This document shows positions 3,697-63,290 of a DNA stretch of 64,000 bases, one piece after another. Below the pieces are notes generated by a model. That model was not told where the DNA came from, ran no database searches, and was given only the letters and a program-made list of their open reading frames with translations. The translations under genes were made by a program, and so were the position numbers. This DNA comes from Cymodocea nodosa. Taxonomy: Eukaryota > Streptophyta > Magnoliopsida > Alismatales > Cymodoceaceae. The stretch spans positions 3,980,501 through 4,044,500 of the forward strand of contig JAZBRI010000003.1 in assembly GCA_036874045.1 (NCBI GenBank). Direction: 5' to 3'. Position 1 is the first letter of the stretch; every line of letters starts with the position of its first letter.

Positions 3697-6600
3697 CTAT
3701 TCTGGATGTCATCTTGAGCTGGAAGGCAAGAAAAAGCATGCCGTCATCTGTTAAATTAAGATATATCCTGAAGGTTGTTTCTGCTGCAATTTGGGTGATT
3801 GTTCTTCCCATCTGCTATGCCTATACTTGGGAGAATCCTTCTGGTGTAGTAGGAACCATTAAAAGTTGGATTGGAGCAAATGGCAGGAACCAGCCCTCTC
3901 TATATATCTTGGCGGTGATTATATATCTGTCTCCAAATGTACTATCTGCATTGTTATTTCTTTTTCCTTGCATACGACGATCTTTGGAGAGATCAGACTA
4001 CAGGATTGTGACACTTATGATGTGGTGGTCTCAGGTTCTTGCTTGCTTTAATGCTTTTCTCCTTTCTTACACGTTTCTGTGTTATATTTTTCTTGGATGC
4101 TCTTGTACACGTCATTCAATAAATTAATGTGCTGTTTTATATTTTCTGAAATACCTTTTTTTTTGATAGCCACGTCTCTTTGTAGCCCGAGGAATGCATG
4201 AAAGCAGCCTTTCCCTTTTCAAGTAGGCATCTCTACGTAATGTAAATCATGAAGTTTGGTTGCAGTATTTACTTAAAATTTGCAAACCTTGACTGCCAGG
4301 TACACCATGTTTTGGGTTCTCCTTATAGTTGCGAAGTTGGCATTCAGCTATTATATTGAGGTATTGACGTTCTTTTGCTCCATTTGTTGTGTTCTACTTG
4401 AATTTGCTAATATTTAGTAATTTTAATTTGCTTGGGCTAATAAATGTTGTTAGATGTAATGCTATTTAGATTTGTATAATAGATATGTTATCTCATATAT
4501 CTTATTTTTAAATAAAATATTTGTTGAAAAACAAGGAAAAATGGATAGTGGAATGCAAAAAGGAAACACAGCACTAGACTTTAAGATAATAGAAAGGTCA
4601 TAATGGCAGGGAAAGTTGAGAAAAGGATAATGAGGATTTCTTCTCTCTTAGTTTCCACAAGAATAAAGCCAAACAGTACAAGGCTCTCTTAAGTCTTTTG
4701 GGGATTATTTTAACATGGTAAATGCAGGTGGGAGATGAACCGATGGGTCCTTAGTGGTGATGTCTAAGCCTCTGTCCTAGGCCCTCCCTTCATCTGATTT
4801 TCTTACAGCTCCATTTGTGAGTTTTTCTCCTGCATACCAATGTCCCCTTCTGGCTGAGTTGATTGGTGTTGCATTAGAATAACATTATCGATAGTTATTT
4901 TCTAAGGTCCATTCTTGACTTTTGTTGTCTCTTTTTCTGATTGTGACCCATTCCTCTTGTGTATTGTTGGTGTTGTTGTCCTTTGTTCAGTTAGTTACAG
5001 GATCATTTGAAAGCCTTTTATCTACCTCATTGTTCTGTGATGGGGGAGTTTGACGTCCTCCCTCTTGCACTAGCCTATTTTTCTGCATAGGGTGTCTACC
5101 ACGACAATCCTCCTGGAGATGCCCAAACCTACAGTAGGCAGCACAGTATCTAGGTGTGCTCTTTCCATATTCAACAAGCTGGACTATCACCTCCTCTCCA
5201 CACTTGATTGTAATTGAGCTAGGTAAGGATTTAGAGACATCTATTTCTACACACAATGCAGTGAATCTAGGCCTAACAACTCTGGATAGGTGCATTCCTA
5301 ACAACCCAACTCTGCATTTTAGTGTTAATGGAGCTTGAAGATGAGCCTGTAGTTTGGGAAGGAAAACCCAAACAGGAACCCAAGATGAATCAAATTCAAG
5401 GGAGAACGAAGGGGACCATTGAGACACCACCATTTTCTTCTCATTAATTAGCCATGAGTTTTTGACATATGCTTTGGTGAGATCCTCCTTGTTCTAAAAT
5501 TTAAGGACGTACCTTAAATCCAAGGCTATCAAACAGAAATCTGTTGAGAAAGTACCAGTCTTCTTCAAAGCATTGAATTTTTTTTTGCCATGGGAGGTGT
5601 AGCCAAGAAGAACCTTCCCGCCAGTGTCCATTGGAGAGCATCTGCTAAAGTTGACACTTCCTCTGTTGTGAAGACCACCTCTTCTTGCTGTTCACTGTGC
5701 TTGGCTCTCTGAGTAGAACCTTGAGAAAATTTGGTGGGACCAGGACATCCCTCATCATTGCCGCAAACAATGACCTTGTGGTCCATTTTTTTGTTGACGT
5801 TGATTGCGTAGGTTAAAAAAGGGGTTTGTGACATGGGCAGGAATTGTTTGCCGTTGTTGTCAAGTGAAACTGCTGAAACTATTGTGATTTCTCTAGTGGT
5901 GATGAGTCTATGGGTGGGGTCGACCTTTACTTTGGTGCAGCCTTTGTTGGGGAGTTTAATTTTGCAAAAGTGTGGAATTGGAACTTCCTTTGGGGTTGTT
6001 CAGAATGTCTCTCTTGATAATGGTGATTCCTAGGTCATGAATATCTTGATGCATTCATATAGGTTTTTCTAGAGTTTTTATATTACAATATTGGTTCTTG
6101 GAATGTTGGTGTAAATTTGGTAAAACATGTATGGGGAATTTTAACTCTCTTCTGCACGGATATTTGTTAAAACATTTTCAAGTACTGGTCTTTCCTTTGT
6201 GTTCTCTGTGCTGTGCCTATTGTTGGAGGATCATTTTTGTAATCACCACCTTCAAATCTAAATTACTGCATTACTTTTGGTGGATCACCTTGTCTTCGTT
6301 TCTTGTAGAGGCTCATATAGCATTTTTCTCATTTTTCCATTCTGCTCTGAGTTGTCTCCCATTTTATGGTATTCATCAGTTGAGCAAGAAGTGTATCTGT
6401 GACTTTGCAATTAATGATTATTTTGATTTGATGTGTTTATATGGCAGCCATTTCATACGTTGTATATGCTTGATTTATTAGTTATTTGTTGTATCTCATT
6501 GATGCAGCTAAGGCCACTTGTTCAACCGACTAAAGATATCATGGATACCCCAATAACAAGCTACAAATGGCATGAATTTTTTCCTCAAGGTATCAAAGCT

Positions 6601-39800: not shown

Positions 39801-42800
39801 ATCATTTGGATCTTTCATCTAGTTGGAGAGGCCGAAGGTGGTATAGAGGGGAATTATTGGGTCAATTGAATAACTCCCAGGGATTCACAAGCTAAGGTTG
39901 GAGATAGGAAGTTGGGAAATTTTTGGAAGGTGAGGTGGATCCGTGGCTGTCCATTGCAGGTATTCTCCCCTAACTTCTTGTGAATTACCATCACACCCTC
40001 TGATTTGCAGTAGCAGGTGTTGGTATTATAGGTGTGACTTGCCAAGGAAAACTCTGATGATGTTATTAGTGGCTAGCTCCACACTTGTTCTCCTGAGTTG
40101 GTGTGTTGCTTGCCCCTATTTGTGGTGCGGAGATTTTTCCTTTGTAGGACTATTGTTTCATTACTGCTGGTCTAATTTGTTGTTGAGGTCTTTTCGCTTG
40201 CCTGGTGTTTGAGTCTGTTCTCTCTCTCTCTCTCTCTGGGCTTATCTTCTTGAATAGCTTGTATTTTTTTTTCTTCCATTTATTTATCAAGTAATTGCTT
40301 ACTACTGACAAATAATAAAGTTTCCTGTTCCTGTTAGGAAGCTAATATTTTAAAAGGAATTTCTGGGTTGAGTATTCCATTGGGAATCCTTTTTCAATTC
40401 TTTACTGTTACTTGTCCGATATATTTTTTTTTGAAAGTACAATCCAAATAACATGTACATTATGGTTCTTTTGAAGTAAAAAGAAGATACACATGCAATT
40501 GTAACATTTCATGGTCATTTGATTTTTCTTTGTTTAATGGAATTAAACACAAACACAAGTTGGCAAAATTTTTCTAACGTGTGGTATTTTTTATTCTTGA
40601 AATGTGATCAAAATTGATGTTGGAATACGAAGTCGTTAACCATAGGTAATTTTGTTTACCATATTTTCAATGACATGACTTGATGTTACGATATTTTACC
40701 AACAAATTTTTTCAACTTATCAAAGTCTGATACGAGATTGATGTTGAATTCCTTCATTTTATTCTGCACTTCTTATGCATGTCATGGAATATTGTGTAGC
40801 TGTAGCCTTTTGAATATTTTGAAATTTTGACAACCAAAATTTCATGATTTGCAGAGTTCGCTTTCACTACGGCCATCCTGATGTTTTTGATCGTTTATTC
40901 CACCTCACAAGAGGTGGTATTAGTAAAGCCTCAAAGATCATTAATTTAAGCGAGGACATTTTTGCAGGTTTTTCCAGACTTGAAATTCCCATCTCAGCTA
41001 TGAGGTTGTCATTGCTTATTGTTACATTCATATTTGCTCTATTCTTGTAGGTTTCAATTCCACACTTCGTGAAGGAAATATTACACACCATGAGTACCTG
41101 CAAGTTGGAAAGGGAAGAGATGTTGGACTTAACCAAATTTCACTTTTTGAAGCTAAGATAGCTAATGGAAATGGAGAGCAGACATTAAGTCGTGACATAT
41201 ACAGGCTTGGACATCGTTTTGATTTTTTTCGGATGTTGTCATGTTATTTCACTACAGTTGGTTTCTACTTCAGCACCTTGGTACGGCATTCACAATCTAC
41301 CATTGACGTGGCATTATATTTTCCAGTTATAAACTGATTCTTGTTATTGGATTGTTCAGGTTACTGTCCTTATCGTTTATGTTTTCCTATATGGACGACT
41401 TTATCTTGTTCTTAGTGGACTTGATAAAGAACTTGCAACTGGTAGAAAGTTTGCACATAATCAGTCACTCCAAGTGGCTTTGGCTTCGCAGTCCTTTGTT
41501 CAACTTGGATTTCTTATGGGACTTCCTATGTTGATGGAAATTGGTTTAGAACATGGATTCCGCACAGCATTAAGTGAATTCATCATGATGCAATTGCAAT
41601 TGGCTTCTGTGTTTTTTACATTTTCTCTGGGTACCAAGACACATTATTTTGGAAGGACGTTGCTCCATGGAGGTGCAGAGTATAGAGCAACAGGTCGAGG
41701 ATTTGTGGTGTTCCATGCCAAGTTTGCTGAAAACTACAGGCTCTACTCTCGTAGTCATTTTGTCAAGGGATTGGAACTAATGCTTTTGCTTATAGTATAC
41801 CTAATGTTTAGCAATTTATATCAGAGTCCAGTAGGTTATATTTTTATCACAGTTTCTATGTGGTTTATGGTTGGATCATGGTTGTTTGCTCCATTCTTGT
41901 TCAATCCTTCTGGGTTTGAATGGCAAAAGATTGTGGATGACTGGACTGATTGGAAAAAGTGGATTAGTAACCGTGGTGGAATTGGAGTGTCCCCTGAGAG
42001 AAGTTGGGAGTCATGGTGGGAAAAGGAGCATGAGCATCTTCATTATACTGGAAAACGTGGGATCATTACTGAGATAATGTTGGCATTGCGCTTTTTCATC
42101 TATCAATATGGGCTTGTTTATCACTTGGACATTACAAAGCACACCAAAAGCGTCTTGGTATGCATTTTTAATCTACCAAAATTTGGAGTATTTGTCAAAT
42201 GACTTTATGAGCATCTTAGAATTTCCACTATAGTTGTAGCTATTTCTTTTTGATATTTTGTCTACAAGAATGCTTTGTTGTCTATTGCATCTTATCTTCA
42301 GTATGCGAGAATTACATTTCCTTCTTCTTGTTTGGAACAGGTATATGGTGTCTCTTGGCTTGTTATCTTCGCAATGCTTCTTGTGATGAAGGTTGATAAA
42401 TATTGTCTATTCTATCTTATTTTTGCAGCTACACATAGGATGTGGTACTCTTCTTTAGACAGTATTGCAAAGAAATGATTATTTTATTTGTTGGCTTATC
42501 TTCTACATTATTAATCACTTCCTTGTTTCTTTAACAAAATCCGCTACATTAAGTTATTAAAATTAATTGAGAATGTGATGTTTAGGTCTCAGTATTTTTT
42601 GTTGAAAATTTCCAGCTTTGTTTATATTCAGTTCGGATTTTTCTTTTGTTATTTCTTCAACTGTCGTTCCAGGTTAGTCTACCTTGTCATTTGCTTTTTC
42701 CTTTCAGTTTGCTATATAGACCATCATGAATTATTTTTATGTTGAGTTGTTGTAGAAGATAAAATTATTTAAATTGAAGATTATAGAAATATAGAGTAGA

Positions 42801-48183: not shown

Positions 48184-49124
48184 TCAATCGTGCAACTGTT
48201 TGCCGGAGTAAGAGCGGCCGAAGCTCCATCTCTTGGGAACCACTTCGTAAGACGTGATCGTGGCCCCGTCGCTGGTGGTGACCTCGAACGACAGTGGCTG
48301 GCCCTTGAGGTCGGCGTTCACGTGCCAATTCTGCCCCCAGTTCCGGCCCATCTGGAGCCAACCTGTCCTCGACCCTTTGATCTTCACCGCGGCGACGTCT
48401 CCGACACCGGCAACGTTGCTGATCAGCACTGACAGGAAGACGCCATGGCCATCTACGGCGAACCGTATCCACCCTTCTCTCCTGCACTTGATCCTGCGGA
48501 AGCAAATATCAACAGATGTGTTTTTATGGAAGATGAACGTGTATGTATTGGGTTTTCAGAATCTAACACCCCCAACATCGCTAAGCGGAGCCCCCCCCCC
48601 CCCCCCCCCCCCCGTCCAGATCCCGACGCCGGAGAGAAGAGAAATGATCCCGGACGAAGACGAACTCACCTGCGGTACTCGATGGGCATGTTTCCGGCCT
48701 TCCAGATGGCGATCTTCTCGTACGCCGCAATGGGCATGACGAAGTGGTGATTGGGAGGATTACAATGTCCGGCCTCCTCCCCCGCCAGGGTGTAATTGGG
48801 CGGGCAGAAGTCGGTGGCGGTGACGACAATGGAGGTCCCGGGGAGGCAGTACCGGACTTCCTCCACGCACCGGACCTGGAAGCATGCCCCGCAGATGCCA
48901 CCTTTCTCGAAGATGGCTTGGCTCACCCCCGCCATCGCCCTCCCGTACCCGGCCTTGTCCAGATCTCCGTACCCGCACGCACCGCCCACGCTTTCCCGCT
49001 GGTCGGGGGCCGCGTAGTAGCTGGCCGTCGCCGGCGTCCACTCCTCCGAGGGGGCGGAGTGGAAGGAGGTCGGCAGTAGAAAGATCATCGATGCCAACAA
49101 CGTCGACAATTTCGTCGGTGGCAT
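48184..49124 (-). CDS. EXPA13: Alpha-expansin 13-like
   Basis: Secreted wall-loosening protein that acts non-hydrolytically on cellulose-hemicellulose contacts. Two exons: 49124-48670 and 48493-48184, giving 254 residues; the intron has a GT donor (CGCAG/GTGAGTT) and AG acceptor (TTCCGCAG/GATCAAG). A signal peptide covers about residues 1-26. The GH45-like domain follows with ASYYAAPDQRESVGGACGYG, ICGACFQVRCVEEVRYC, TATDFCPPNYTL and HCNPPNHHFVMPI. The C-terminal CBM63-like domain has VAAVKIKGSRTGWLQMGRNW, GQNWHVNADLKGQPLSFEVT and a final WSFGRSYSGKQLHD. GIWKAGNMP-type wording and the RES/VGGACGYGDL start point to the EXPA13 subgroup. The HFD motif of most alpha-expansins reads HFV. GC is far higher than in the callose synthase gene. 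Confidence 0.93.
48591..48613. repeat. Poly-C tract (C23) in the expansin intron
   Basis: An uninterrupted run of 23 C lies in the 176-bp intron (48494-48669); on the transcribed strand it is a G23 run about 57 nt downstream of the donor. Confidence 0.9.
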
Positions 49125-49550
49125 CTTGGATTCGATTCGAAGACGAAGGGAGCGTGGGGTTGGGGAAGAACACCACTGGCCGGCGGTGTGCTCAGCGTCC
49201 GCAGCCGAGTTCTCTCTTTTAAGAAATTTTTCTTTTTTTCAGAAGCATGTCTTATTTTACAAGTATTTAAAACTTTAATTTATAATTCATTAATTTACAG
49301 TATAATCTATTTTTTTTTATTATAATGAAGTGATTAATATTAAAGAAAGGAAAAGACTTTAATAACATCTACAATCAAAACCGCCATTCTACGTAAATGG
49401 ATATAAAAGATATTTAAGTCTAACAAAACAAAAGATTTGCAAGATAAAATAAATAAAAAAAGAGTTAATTATTCCAATGCTTCAAAGGAAAGCAAAGATC
49501 TAGATAACGAGAAATTTCGACCGACGAAGAGCGACGGAAGGCGGAAGGGG
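49125..49550. other. Upstream region of the expansin gene
   Basis: It should hold the expansin promoter (minus strand). CTTAAAAGAGAG at about 49213-49224 is a weak TATA-like candidate roughly 90 bp upstream of the ATG. The rest is AT-rich with no recognised gene. Confidence 0.35.
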
Positions 49551-55990: not shown

Positions 55991-57646
55991 ATGGCTTTGT
56001 TCTGTGGGTGCTGGGGCATGATCAAGAGCGTCTTTGGCCTCGACGACGAGGACGACCATGAGAACGACACAACCTTCTGGTCCACCGATGGGAAGCATTA
56101 CAGTGGGGAATACTCGTACGCCGCGGTCCGAGCAAATTCGCCCGTCCAAGACTACTCCCAGTTCGACTTCGGGCCACCCGCCACCTTCTTCGGCATATAC
56201 GCCGGCCACAACGGCCGCGAAGCAGCCCAATACGTCTCCGAAAGGCTTTTCGGTCGAATCATGGGTACGCACGGCGCCTACACGTCACATCTCGTTAATC
56301 AGTTCGATTCTTACCACGGAATGATTAATTTTCTTTCCTTTCCCATGTATGAATGTATGTGGATGACAGAGCTCTGCGTGGAAGACGGGCACGTAGTGTC
56401 CAAGAAGACAATGAGGAGAGCCATTCTTGAAATGGAGAGAGGGTTCATCCAATCGACACAGGAGAATCCAAGGTTGGCCACGGTGGGGACGTCCTGCGTG
56501 ATCGGATTCATCCTGCGGCGGTCGGTGCTGGTGGCTAACCTGGGGGATTCCCGGGCTGTGATGTGTCGTCGTCGACTTCGCTACAAGAAGCCGGAGGAAG
56601 AGTTCGAAGTGGTTCAACTGACGAGAGAGCACAGCGTGAGGGAGCCGTCGATCAGGCAATCGATCGAACAGCAACACCCATGGGAACCCGACATCATTCG
56701 CAAGAGGGGACACACCTATTGCATCAAGGGAATGATACCGGTAATTAGTATAATTAAAGTGTACCTGCCAATTGATCACTTGATTAATGATCGATTAATT
56801 ACTTGTCTGCTTAAATATTTATTGATTAACTAATCGATCGATTAATTATATTGATGAAGGTGACGAGAAGTATAGGGGACGCGTACCTGAAGTCGACGGA
56901 GTTCGGGGTGGAAGACACGGAGAGTCCTTTCCACTTCGAGACGCCTCTGGCCAAGGCCGCCCTTTTTTCGGAGCCGGAGATCACCGAATGCCCTCGTAGC
57001 TGGGACGACTTGTGCCTGGTGTGCGCGTCCCACGGCCTGTGGGAGCACCTCTCCAATGAAGACGCCCTCCGCATCATCGTCGCCAACCTCCACAACAGAA
57101 AGGTGGCGACGCATGTTTAATCGATTCAGCCTCTATAAACAAACAGATACGCGTAAATCTACTCTGATACTCTTAAATTAGAATTTAACGTGTTTGATTA
57201 CGTACCCACCAGGGTATCGCGAGGAAGTTGGCCAGGGAAGCCATGAAAAGGTGCGCCAAACGGCTCTCGATAATGAGGTACGTACGTACTCAGTTGTGGT
57301 TACGTGCAGTTATGGTTGGTTGGTTTATTAGTTAAGTCGGTTGTGTAATATATATATATATATATATATAGATAATGATAATAATTGCATTGGCAGGAGG
57401 GTGGTGAACGGCATTACGCGAAGGGTGTGCCACGATGACATGACGGTGATGGTGGTGTACACCGACCCGAGCAAGCAGAAGTTGGTGGACTACAAACCGC
57501 TGGCCGCCAGAACCAGGCGGCCCTTCTCGGCGGCGCACGACCATTCCAAGTTTATACTGTGGACCGAGATCTGGGACGAGGACAAGGACGCCGCCTGCAC
57601 CTGGCCGTCGCCTTCTTCGGCTCGAGCTCGGATGAAGATCAAGTAA
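55991..57646 (+). CDS. Clade-D-like PP2C protein phosphatase, probably catalytically dead
   Basis: Five exons: 55991-56264, 56370-56740, 56860-57102, 57213-57277, 57397-57646. They join in frame to 400 residues with GT-AG introns. Clade-D features are GEYSYAAVRAN near residue 34, NLGDSRAVMCRR, REHSVREPSIRQSIEQQHPW, VTRSIGDAYLKSTEF, LAKAALFSEPEITECPRSWD, and a final HDDMTVMVVYTD. The usual metal-site motif YDGHGG reads YAGHNG, FASDGLWE reads CASHGLWE, and the N-terminal ED..SQVE reads QDYSQFD. Loss of these aspartates should abolish Mn/Mg binding. Family role: plasma-membrane-linked dephosphorylation, e.g. of H+-ATPases opposed by SAUR proteins; that may not apply here. It has a C-terminal extension of about 40 residues. 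High GC. Confidence 0.88.
57346..57371. repeat. (AT)n microsatellite in the last PP2C intron
   Basis: About 13 TA units between the fourth and fifth exons. Confidence 0.9.
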
Positions 57647-61600: not shown

Positions 61601-61706
61601 GAATTAAATCAAATCATCAGTGCAAACAAAAGGATAGCAGGAAGAATCCAAAGTGTGAAGTGGAAAGGCCTTAGTCTCCTTCCACATATTTCTTTTCGAT
61701 TAGTAG
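57647..61706. other. AT-rich spacer without a recognised gene
   Basis: The first part is PP2C 3' flank with a (GCAC)n run at 57700-57716. A (TA)n microsatellite of about 17 units lies at 58585-58618. A CT/GA-rich stretch lies near 59590-59630. Open stretches here (for example 59797-59492 minus and 60775-61035 plus) show no domain or codon pattern I trust. Repeated CATGA/ATCATG words at 58.5-59.2 kb suggest old repeats, unassigned. Confidence 0.5.
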
Positions 61707-63290
61707 TTAGTACCTTGAAACCATCAGATCTGTGTGTTCCCCAACAGGGGTTTCCTCTCTTGCAGAGTTGTTCTCTTTCTCCAGCGAGGAATCCAAGCTC
61801 CACTGCATTCCTCTGCCGTCTGAAACACTGCTTGATCCTGTTTTGCAGACCCATGGGTTGCACGTTGTTATGAAGATGGGAGGCGAGATTAATCCCCACT
61901 GTTCTTTGGCAGCATTGGATGTTCCTATGGATGGCATGCGCCTCTTCTACAAAGCTGTTAATAAAACCAAGAATGAAAGATCCCAAACTAGTTACGGATG
62001 CCAGAATTAAAGAAGCAAAAAGACCATCAGATCAGAACGATTTCGGCACTGCCTAGTTTCCAATTCAACCGTGCTTTCAATAATGTTTACCTTTTCCATG
62101 GCTGGTAACCATTCAAAACACTTGACGAGTCGAACACTTGATGTGATTTTGCTGCTGTAAATCTGTCTCTTTGGTTTTGTTTCTCGTCGACATGTTTTCC
62201 ATGAGAACGCTGGTCGTCGGTCGCTTGCGAGCAACGCCAATCTGAGCAAGAAGAAAGAGTTAAGGCAGGGGAAAAAGTGTCACAAATCACCATGCATTCT
62301 GATTAAAAATATATATAGAAATCTATATATATACATATATATCTAAACATAGAAATAGGTAGGTGGTTCTAATTTCTGTATTAACTATGTTGAAGACTAT
62401 AAAAAGAGATCTTCCAATCAGAAGGACCAATAAATTATTAATCTAGGACATTACCAGACTGCCACATTGACAGTTAGAACAGCAATATGGTTTGAAAATG
62501 GACTGTCACAGGACCAAGACAAGTACACTAAAATAAATAGCAGATGGGATGGAGAACACAAGATAAGGGGCATGAAGAGTGAAAAAAGAGAGAGAATGTA
62601 CTTCTTCCACACATAACTTAACGTTGTTATATCAACATTCAACAAGTGAACAATCATGTGTATCTAAGTGATAAGCGACTTTTTTGTTATCTTTAAGATT
62701 GTAGATTCAAACTTGAAGTGAATGCAAGTTGAAGCCGGTGGAAAGCATTCAACGAAAACATTCAACAAGTGAAGATGTGATAGAAAAGGGAAAAAAATAC
62801 CGAGTTGCACGGCATGCCTGTTCACATCATTCTTCACGCTCCTGTACATCTGTGCAGCACAAAGCAAGGGAAATGAATACAAATGTAGGAGCTAATGCAT
62901 ACAGGAAAGCAAGAAGAATAATTCGAAGGGAGGAACCTGAAGATGGCTCTTGACATGCGAAATGGTCAATCCTTCCACCTTCATGAGTTGCAGAACAAGC
63001 TTCGGGGTGGCCTCTACAAGCACCAACACATGTTGATAGGATGATACATACGATAGCAATGTTTTCATCAAACAGACAACGATGAGGTCAGAAACCAAGA
63101 AGAAGAAGAAGAAGAAGCCTTAAGAAGGAGGAGGAGGAGGAAGTGAAGGAGCTGGATATATACTTTGTTGGCCTCCAAGCTTTTCAATGGCATGCAAAAA
63201 GCAGCGGTGAAGATCTGGAGTCCATCTCAAACGAGGAACTTTGGATCGTACGTATTTCCTAACCATGCCTTTCTTTCCACTCTTCCCCAT
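61707..63290 (-). CDS. GARP (G2-like) MYB-type transcription factor
   Basis: Nuclear DNA-binding protein. Exons on the minus strand: 63290-63164, 63013-62937, 62849-62801, 62241-62091 and, less surely, 61941-61707; together 212 codons. The start ATG (63290) follows an in-frame TGA six bases upstream. Residues 1-15 are basic (MGKSGKKGMVRKYVR); the GARP domain then reads SKVPRLRWTPDLHRCFLHAI, EKLGGQQ, KATPKLVLQLMKVEGLTISH, VKSHLQ and MYRSVKNDVNRHAVQ. SHLQMYR is the family's hallmark. Exon 4 gives DWRCSQATDDQRSHGKH and QVFDSSSVLNGYQPWK. The C-terminus is uncertain: exon 5 joined at 61941 gives a Ser-rich tail ending DLMVSRY, while unspliced exon 4 would stop at 62087. It resembles the small At1g14600/At2g42660-type GARP proteins. 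Confidence 0.85.
63098..63141. repeat. (AAG)n and (GAG)n repeats in the first GARP intron
   Basis: AAG units at 63098-63117 and GAG units at 63126-63141; on the transcribed strand these form a pyrimidine-rich tract just inside the donor. Confidence 0.85.

Follow-up and report, generated by a model that had tools for sequence, protein, structure and literature searches.

A probable, retained PP2C pseudophosphatase in the genome of Cymodocea nodosa

Non-catalytic PP2Cs and the clade-D phosphatases

In the PP2C phosphatases, the Glu and Asp residues of the conserved motifs are the ligands of two metal ions. Mutation of any single metal-coordinating residue is reported to abolish the activity, and among the animal members of the family, TAB1 and PHLPP1/2 are described as having lost metal ligands, the activity of PHLPP reportedly more than 450 million years ago (PMC13358185). 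Such pseudophosphatases have been described in plants too: RDO5/DOG18 (REDUCED DORMANCY5) of Arabidopsis is reported to be a family member without phosphatase activity that acts in seed dormancy and in antiviral RNAi (PMC5509711, PMC9151786), its other described features being nuclear localization, seed specificity and DOG1 binding.

The other known group relevant here is the clade-D PP2Cs (PP2C.D1-D9; PP2C38, PP2C48). Arabidopsis PP2C38 is reported to regulate the immune kinase BIK1 negatively and, when carrying D87N + D289N, to be completely devoid of activity (PMC4975489). SAUR proteins are described as inhibitors of the PP2C.D phosphatases whose action results in activation of the plasma-membrane H+-ATPase (PMC6016943, PMC9522268), and PP2C.D5 with the M328K substitution is reported to be immune to SAUR19 (PMC9522268). 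A scaffolding role of PP2C.D6 is left open by the authors of one of these reports, who consider it unlikely (PMC6016943).

The gene analyzed here lies in a 64,000-nucleotide stretch of the Cymodocea nodosa genome (hereafter, the window). It is likened to RDO5 by description; TAB1 and PHLPP1/2 differ from it in domain make-up, and their ligand losses are probably independent. The likeness to clade D was judged on six canonical genes of the same genome, which we take to be clade-D-type from motif resemblance and general knowledge of the family: the first three introns of the window gene are at matching places and phases, common to all six, and related GIAxxL, GLWEHLS and HDDxTV regions are present. 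It differs from these six genes in that Gln, Ala and His stand in place of three metal ligands out of four, and in having an extra fourth intron, an acidic linker and a different tail. Overall, this sequence comparison supports a relationship to clade D. Among the titles listed in searches of open-licence papers, none describes the lineage of the window gene and its two divergent paralogues (C9 and C2).

Gene model and metal ligands

The window gene (positions 55991-57646, plus strand) is a predicted five-exon PP2C gene with a coding sequence of 1203 nt (400 amino acids and a stop codon) and no internal stops; all four introns have GT-AG ends, so that the initial annotation of intact splice sites and 400 intact codons holds for the model. 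Its parts are as follows:

55991..56264, plus strand: exon 1, residues 1-91 and the first base of codon 92
56370..56740, plus strand: exon 2, holding NLGDSRAV and KGMIP
56860..57102, plus strand: exon 3, holding RSIGDAYLK and CASHGLWEHLSNE
57213..57277, plus strand: exon 4, holding GIARKLAREAMKRCAKRLSIM and two bases of Arg318
57278..57396, plus strand: intron 4, 119 nt with a TA run, splicing predicted
57397..57646, plus strand: exon 5, holding HDDMTVMVVYTDP, the C-terminal tail and the stop codon TAA

Exon 1 encodes a Cys-containing N terminus, the acidic linker DDEDD, FWSTDG, QDYSQFD and YAGHNG, and is 44-48% identical to the first exons of C9 and C2. The persistence of NLGDSRAV, RSIGDAYLK and HDDMTV, pointed out in the initial annotation, is borne out by their presence in exons 2, 3 and 5. 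The Pfam PP2C domain (PF00481) is matched over residues 64-310 with E=2.5e-30 and 106.4 bits (cut-off 20.3); the scores of C9 and C2 (78.2 and 77.3 bits) also place them within the PP2C fold by the same cut-off. Among the sequences of solved structures, 55 distinct matches were obtained at E up to 0.001, the best being a plant PP2C (4.5e-19).

The four ligand positions of the window gene are the following:

56147..56149, plus strand: Gln53, codon CAA; Glu (metal ligand) in the six canonical paralogues, Gln also in C9 and C2
56201..56203, plus strand: Ala71, codon GCC; replaces the bridging ligand Asp of YDGHGG, which is kept in C9 and C2
57031..57033, plus strand: His273, codon CAC; replaces the ligand Asp of ASDGLWE, a change seen in C9 and C2 as well
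57434..57436, plus strand: Asp331, codon GAT; the sole acidic ligand kept

Thus, of the four acidic ligands (Glu, Asp, Asp, Asp) by which an active PP2C was recognized, one is retained in the window gene, two each in C9 and C2, and all four in the six canonical genes. YAGHNG (starting at residue 70) and ASHGLWEH (at 271) read as originally described, in place of YDGHGG and ASDGLWE. The third described change, that of an acidic pair, stands in part: the first residue, Glu, is Gln53 at the start of QDYSQFD, and the Asp that follows is kept. His73 of the GH.G motif is kept too, and HDDMTV starts at residue 330. In the alignment with the six clade-D-type genes, a check of the kind that had been proposed, every ligand replaced in the window gene is retained by the six.

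Alignment with solved PP2Cs pairs YAGH with YDGH, ASHGLWE with ASDGLWD, and HDDMTV with EDNITV; YDGHGG and ASDGLWE of a canonical paralogue likewise align with solved PP2Cs, whereas its ED and HDDITV align weakly with pyruvate dehydrogenase phosphatase (9 and 4 bits alone). Beside this weak alignment of ED, the Glu is taken to be a ligand partly from general knowledge of the family. In the canonical gene C14, the Asp residues of YDGHGG and ASDGLWE are at positions 87 and 288, so D87 and D289 of PP2C38, the pair altered in the inactive mutant (PMC4975489), are likely to be the same two aspartates. By position, the window gene would have lost both, and C9 and C2 one each.

The ligand losses have to be read against the overall divergence of the gene. 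The six canonical paralogues share 128 invariant positions, of which 72 are kept in the window gene and 66 each in C9 and C2; with divergence this high, loss of at least three of the four ligands is not unusual by chance, and no enrichment of ligand loss over the other invariant positions was found in the window gene (hypergeometric probability 0.22). The observation carries weight because two of the ligand losses are common to two other intact genes.

Paralogues and descent

The genome (374.6 Mb in 28 contigs) contains at least 95 exon-level PP2C matches. A search with the window gene as the query gave 31 matches, at the gene itself and at twelve other loci, the eight closest of which were modelled: the divergent C9 and C2 and the canonical C5, C6, C12, C14, C17 and C18 (weaker loci on C10, C4, C6 and C5 are outside this set). 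All eight models are open without frameshifts; the start of the C6 model is placed too far upstream, and this model was shortened solely for use in the tree. C9 and C2 are intact over four exons, with neither stops nor frameshifts, and have Gln and His like the window gene, yet keep the Asp in YDGHHG.

When the whole genome was scanned for exact matches to the ASDGLWE codons in the His form, four places were found compared with none in the reversed control, namely the window gene, C9, C2 and a CAY match on contig C8 that was rejected as a chance site, with no PP2C around it. With any codon allowed at this position, the pattern occurs at 69 places, Asp accounting for 23 of them (by count; letters were shown for all but four); the reversed control yields 39, so that many of the remaining any-codon matches are chance ones.

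Over its full length, the protein of the window gene is as distant from C9 and C2 (32-33% identity) as from the canonical genes (31-36%). In 26 alignment columns, two ligand columns included, the residue is identical in all three and absent from the six. The third-position GC content is 0.77-0.83 in the three genes vs 0.39-0.50 in the canonical ones. In a tree of the nine genes with the altered ligand residues masked, the three are separated from the six with support of 100/99; with two distantly related PP2Cs from this genome added as an outgroup, the support for the group falls to 79/61, and a topology in which the window gene branches outside the remaining eight could not be rejected (p-AU 0.26).

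On the simplest reading of these sequences, the Glu and one Asp would have been lost once, in a common ancestor, before the window gene split from C9 and C2 (dS 1.3-1.5), and the bridging Asp would have been lost later in the window gene alone. Errors of sequencing or assembly are an extremely improbable source of the ligand changes: Ala71 is known from one locus, but Gln and His recur at three distinct loci, each set in different DNA. Loci C9 and C2, with 20 kb on either side, were compared with each other and with the window region, taken as the final 24 kb of the window and the adjoining 19.5 kb, using open frames of at least 35 aa. The window region and C2 share four matches and C9 and C2 share 11, all within the PP2C gene; the window region and C9 share 32, of which four are within the PP2C gene and the 28 elsewhere are read as retroelement pieces and antisense frames. 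No neighbour gene common to the three loci was seen among the open frames of the compared flanks.

A piece of contig C12 (19451676-19451945) was considered as a fourth gene of this kind and rejected, as it is a stop-bearing, intronless fragment. It spans the junction of exons 1 and 2 of the C2 gene without a gap (190 bp, 73% identity) and is likely to be a processed pseudogene related to that gene, an indirect sign of past germ-line transcription and splicing in the C2 lineage.

Constraint and competing explanations

The pairwise NG86 estimates are dS 0.77 and dN 0.27 for C9 vs C2, dS 1.31 and dN 0.72 for the window gene vs C9, and dS 1.46 and dN 0.69 for the window gene vs C2, the latter two comparisons being near saturation (pS 0.62-0.64); dS is saturated for the window gene and C9 vs C14. 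In a purpose-written codon branch model (327 gap-free codons, fixed tree), omega is 0.31 on the lineage of the three genes and 0.14 elsewhere (2dlnL 19.8), under the assumption of a single base composition that is violated by the contrast in third-position GC. For the tips of C9 and C2, an omega of 1 is strongly rejected (52.6); for that of the window gene, the rejection is marginal (5.2, p 0.023). When neutral evolution of its coding sequence was simulated with substitutions only, an open frame survived in 12% of the 1000 runs once 0.05 substitutions per site had accumulated, and in 0.1% at 0.2. On the simplest reading, then, the common ligand losses are much older than the time for which an unselected frame would stay open; the window gene itself could have been recently freed of constraint.

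Intron 4 has no counterpart in any of the eight paralogues, which makes this part of the five-exon structure a prediction; it carries a TA run, lies at MRY and may represent a recently gained intron or a disruption. The donor is predicted within the MRY codons, such that the Tyr codon falls within the intron: the genomic frame reads IMRY, then VRTQLW, with a stop a little later, and the spliced prediction reads IMRRVV (continuing as RVVNG), with Met kept and YSDL missing. With intron 4 unspliced, the reading frame would close at 57335, upstream of HDDMTV; SDL was not found in intron 4 in the three frames of the plus strand. The corresponding stretch is RE(M/T)RY(S/A)DL within a single exon in the six canonical genes, C5 being one with Thr at the Met position, and RCMRYMDL and RRMRYRDL in C9 and C2, respectively; the window gene thus lacks this clade-D mark. 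Because the Met of REMRYSDL is residue 329 in C14, it is likely to be the counterpart of M328 of PP2C.D5 (PMC9522268), and REMRYSDL is probably a SAUR-sensitivity motif.

It is likely that the window gene encodes a retained, catalytically dead PP2C, a protein that probably works by binding rather than as an enzyme. The marks of a pseudophosphatase, namely a PP2C domain, missing ligands and retention, are all found, with evidence for the tip of the window gene alone being marginal and with inactivity predicted; retention is best supported because two intact paralogues share part of the ligand loss. The predicted intact frame would encode a PP2C fold in which, judging from the known biochemistry, the absence of both the bridging Asp and that of ASDG would prevent the two-metal centre from forming, so that phosphoserine and phosphothreonine would not be hydrolysed by the PP2C mechanism. 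A retained non-enzymatic role had been proposed from the start and fits the intact frame, the lost ligands and the two losses shared with C9 and C2, but its SAUR part is weakened by the predicted interruption of MRYSDL. That the protein is a decoy for the SAUR proteins that inhibit clade-D PP2Cs is very unlikely: the gene resembles the clade-D-type ones and MRYxDL is kept in C9 and C2, but YSDL is gone from its own stretch, although Met stays; the motif mapping behind this objection is positional, from M328K, and C5 has Thr there. An unlikely reading is that the pseudophosphatase family is retained except for the window gene, which would be a young pseudogene in decay. Ala71, as a third lost ligand, and intron 4 are private to it among the nine genes, a TA-rich insertion breaks its fourth exon, its omega is only marginally below 1, and an open frame can outlast 0.05 substitutions per site of neutrality; against this, its splice sites fit GT-AG, exon 5 is in frame after the insertion and keeps HDDMTV and a related tail, the 400 codons are stop-free, and it keeps more canonical invariants than C9 or C2.

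There is also a small chance that His and the kept Asp (in C9 and C2, also the Asp of YDGHHG) bind a single Zn or similar ion, which would serve structure or regulation, as in human PHLPP2, reported to be inactive with one zinc in the catalytic site (PMC13358185). All three genes have the same His replacement, but this may merely reflect common descent, and because of Ala71 the four positions of the window gene offer no more than His273 and Asp331. As for the function of a retained, dead protein, a tentative and rather doubtful proposal is that it docks on one or more phosphoproteins or regulators handled by clade-D phosphatases and, by shielding or scaffolding them, counteracts the active enzymes; a partner in common with the clade-D targets is possible, the candidates being the plasma-membrane H+-ATPase and immune receptor-like cytoplasmic kinases of the BIK1 kind. 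A more far-reaching and quite improbable version would have an old, clade-D-related lineage, probably monocot judging by its high third-position GC and sequence style, whose two-metal centre was converted into a His/Asp site for one metal or left as an empty pocket, giving rise to an antagonist that protects against clade-D phosphatases, with the window gene escaping SAUR control through a new intron that replaced YSDL. A further plant lineage beside RDO5, with three intact members next to active clade-D-type enzymes, would make the tuning of phosphatase signalling by dead paralogues testable, and is a reason for surveys of the PP2C family to inspect the ligand residues before naming a gene a phosphatase.

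Elsewhere in the window, a 140-codon open frame at 61609-62031 (minus strand) gave no Pfam match at E up to 0.01, and three other features were recognized:

4987..5493, minus strand: DUF4283 match, which we take to be typical of retroelement remains
41333..42202, plus strand: 1,3-beta-glucan (callose) synthase exon (Pfam Glucan_synthase)
48666..49238, minus strand: expansin-like exon (Pfam DPBB_1 and EXPB1_D1)
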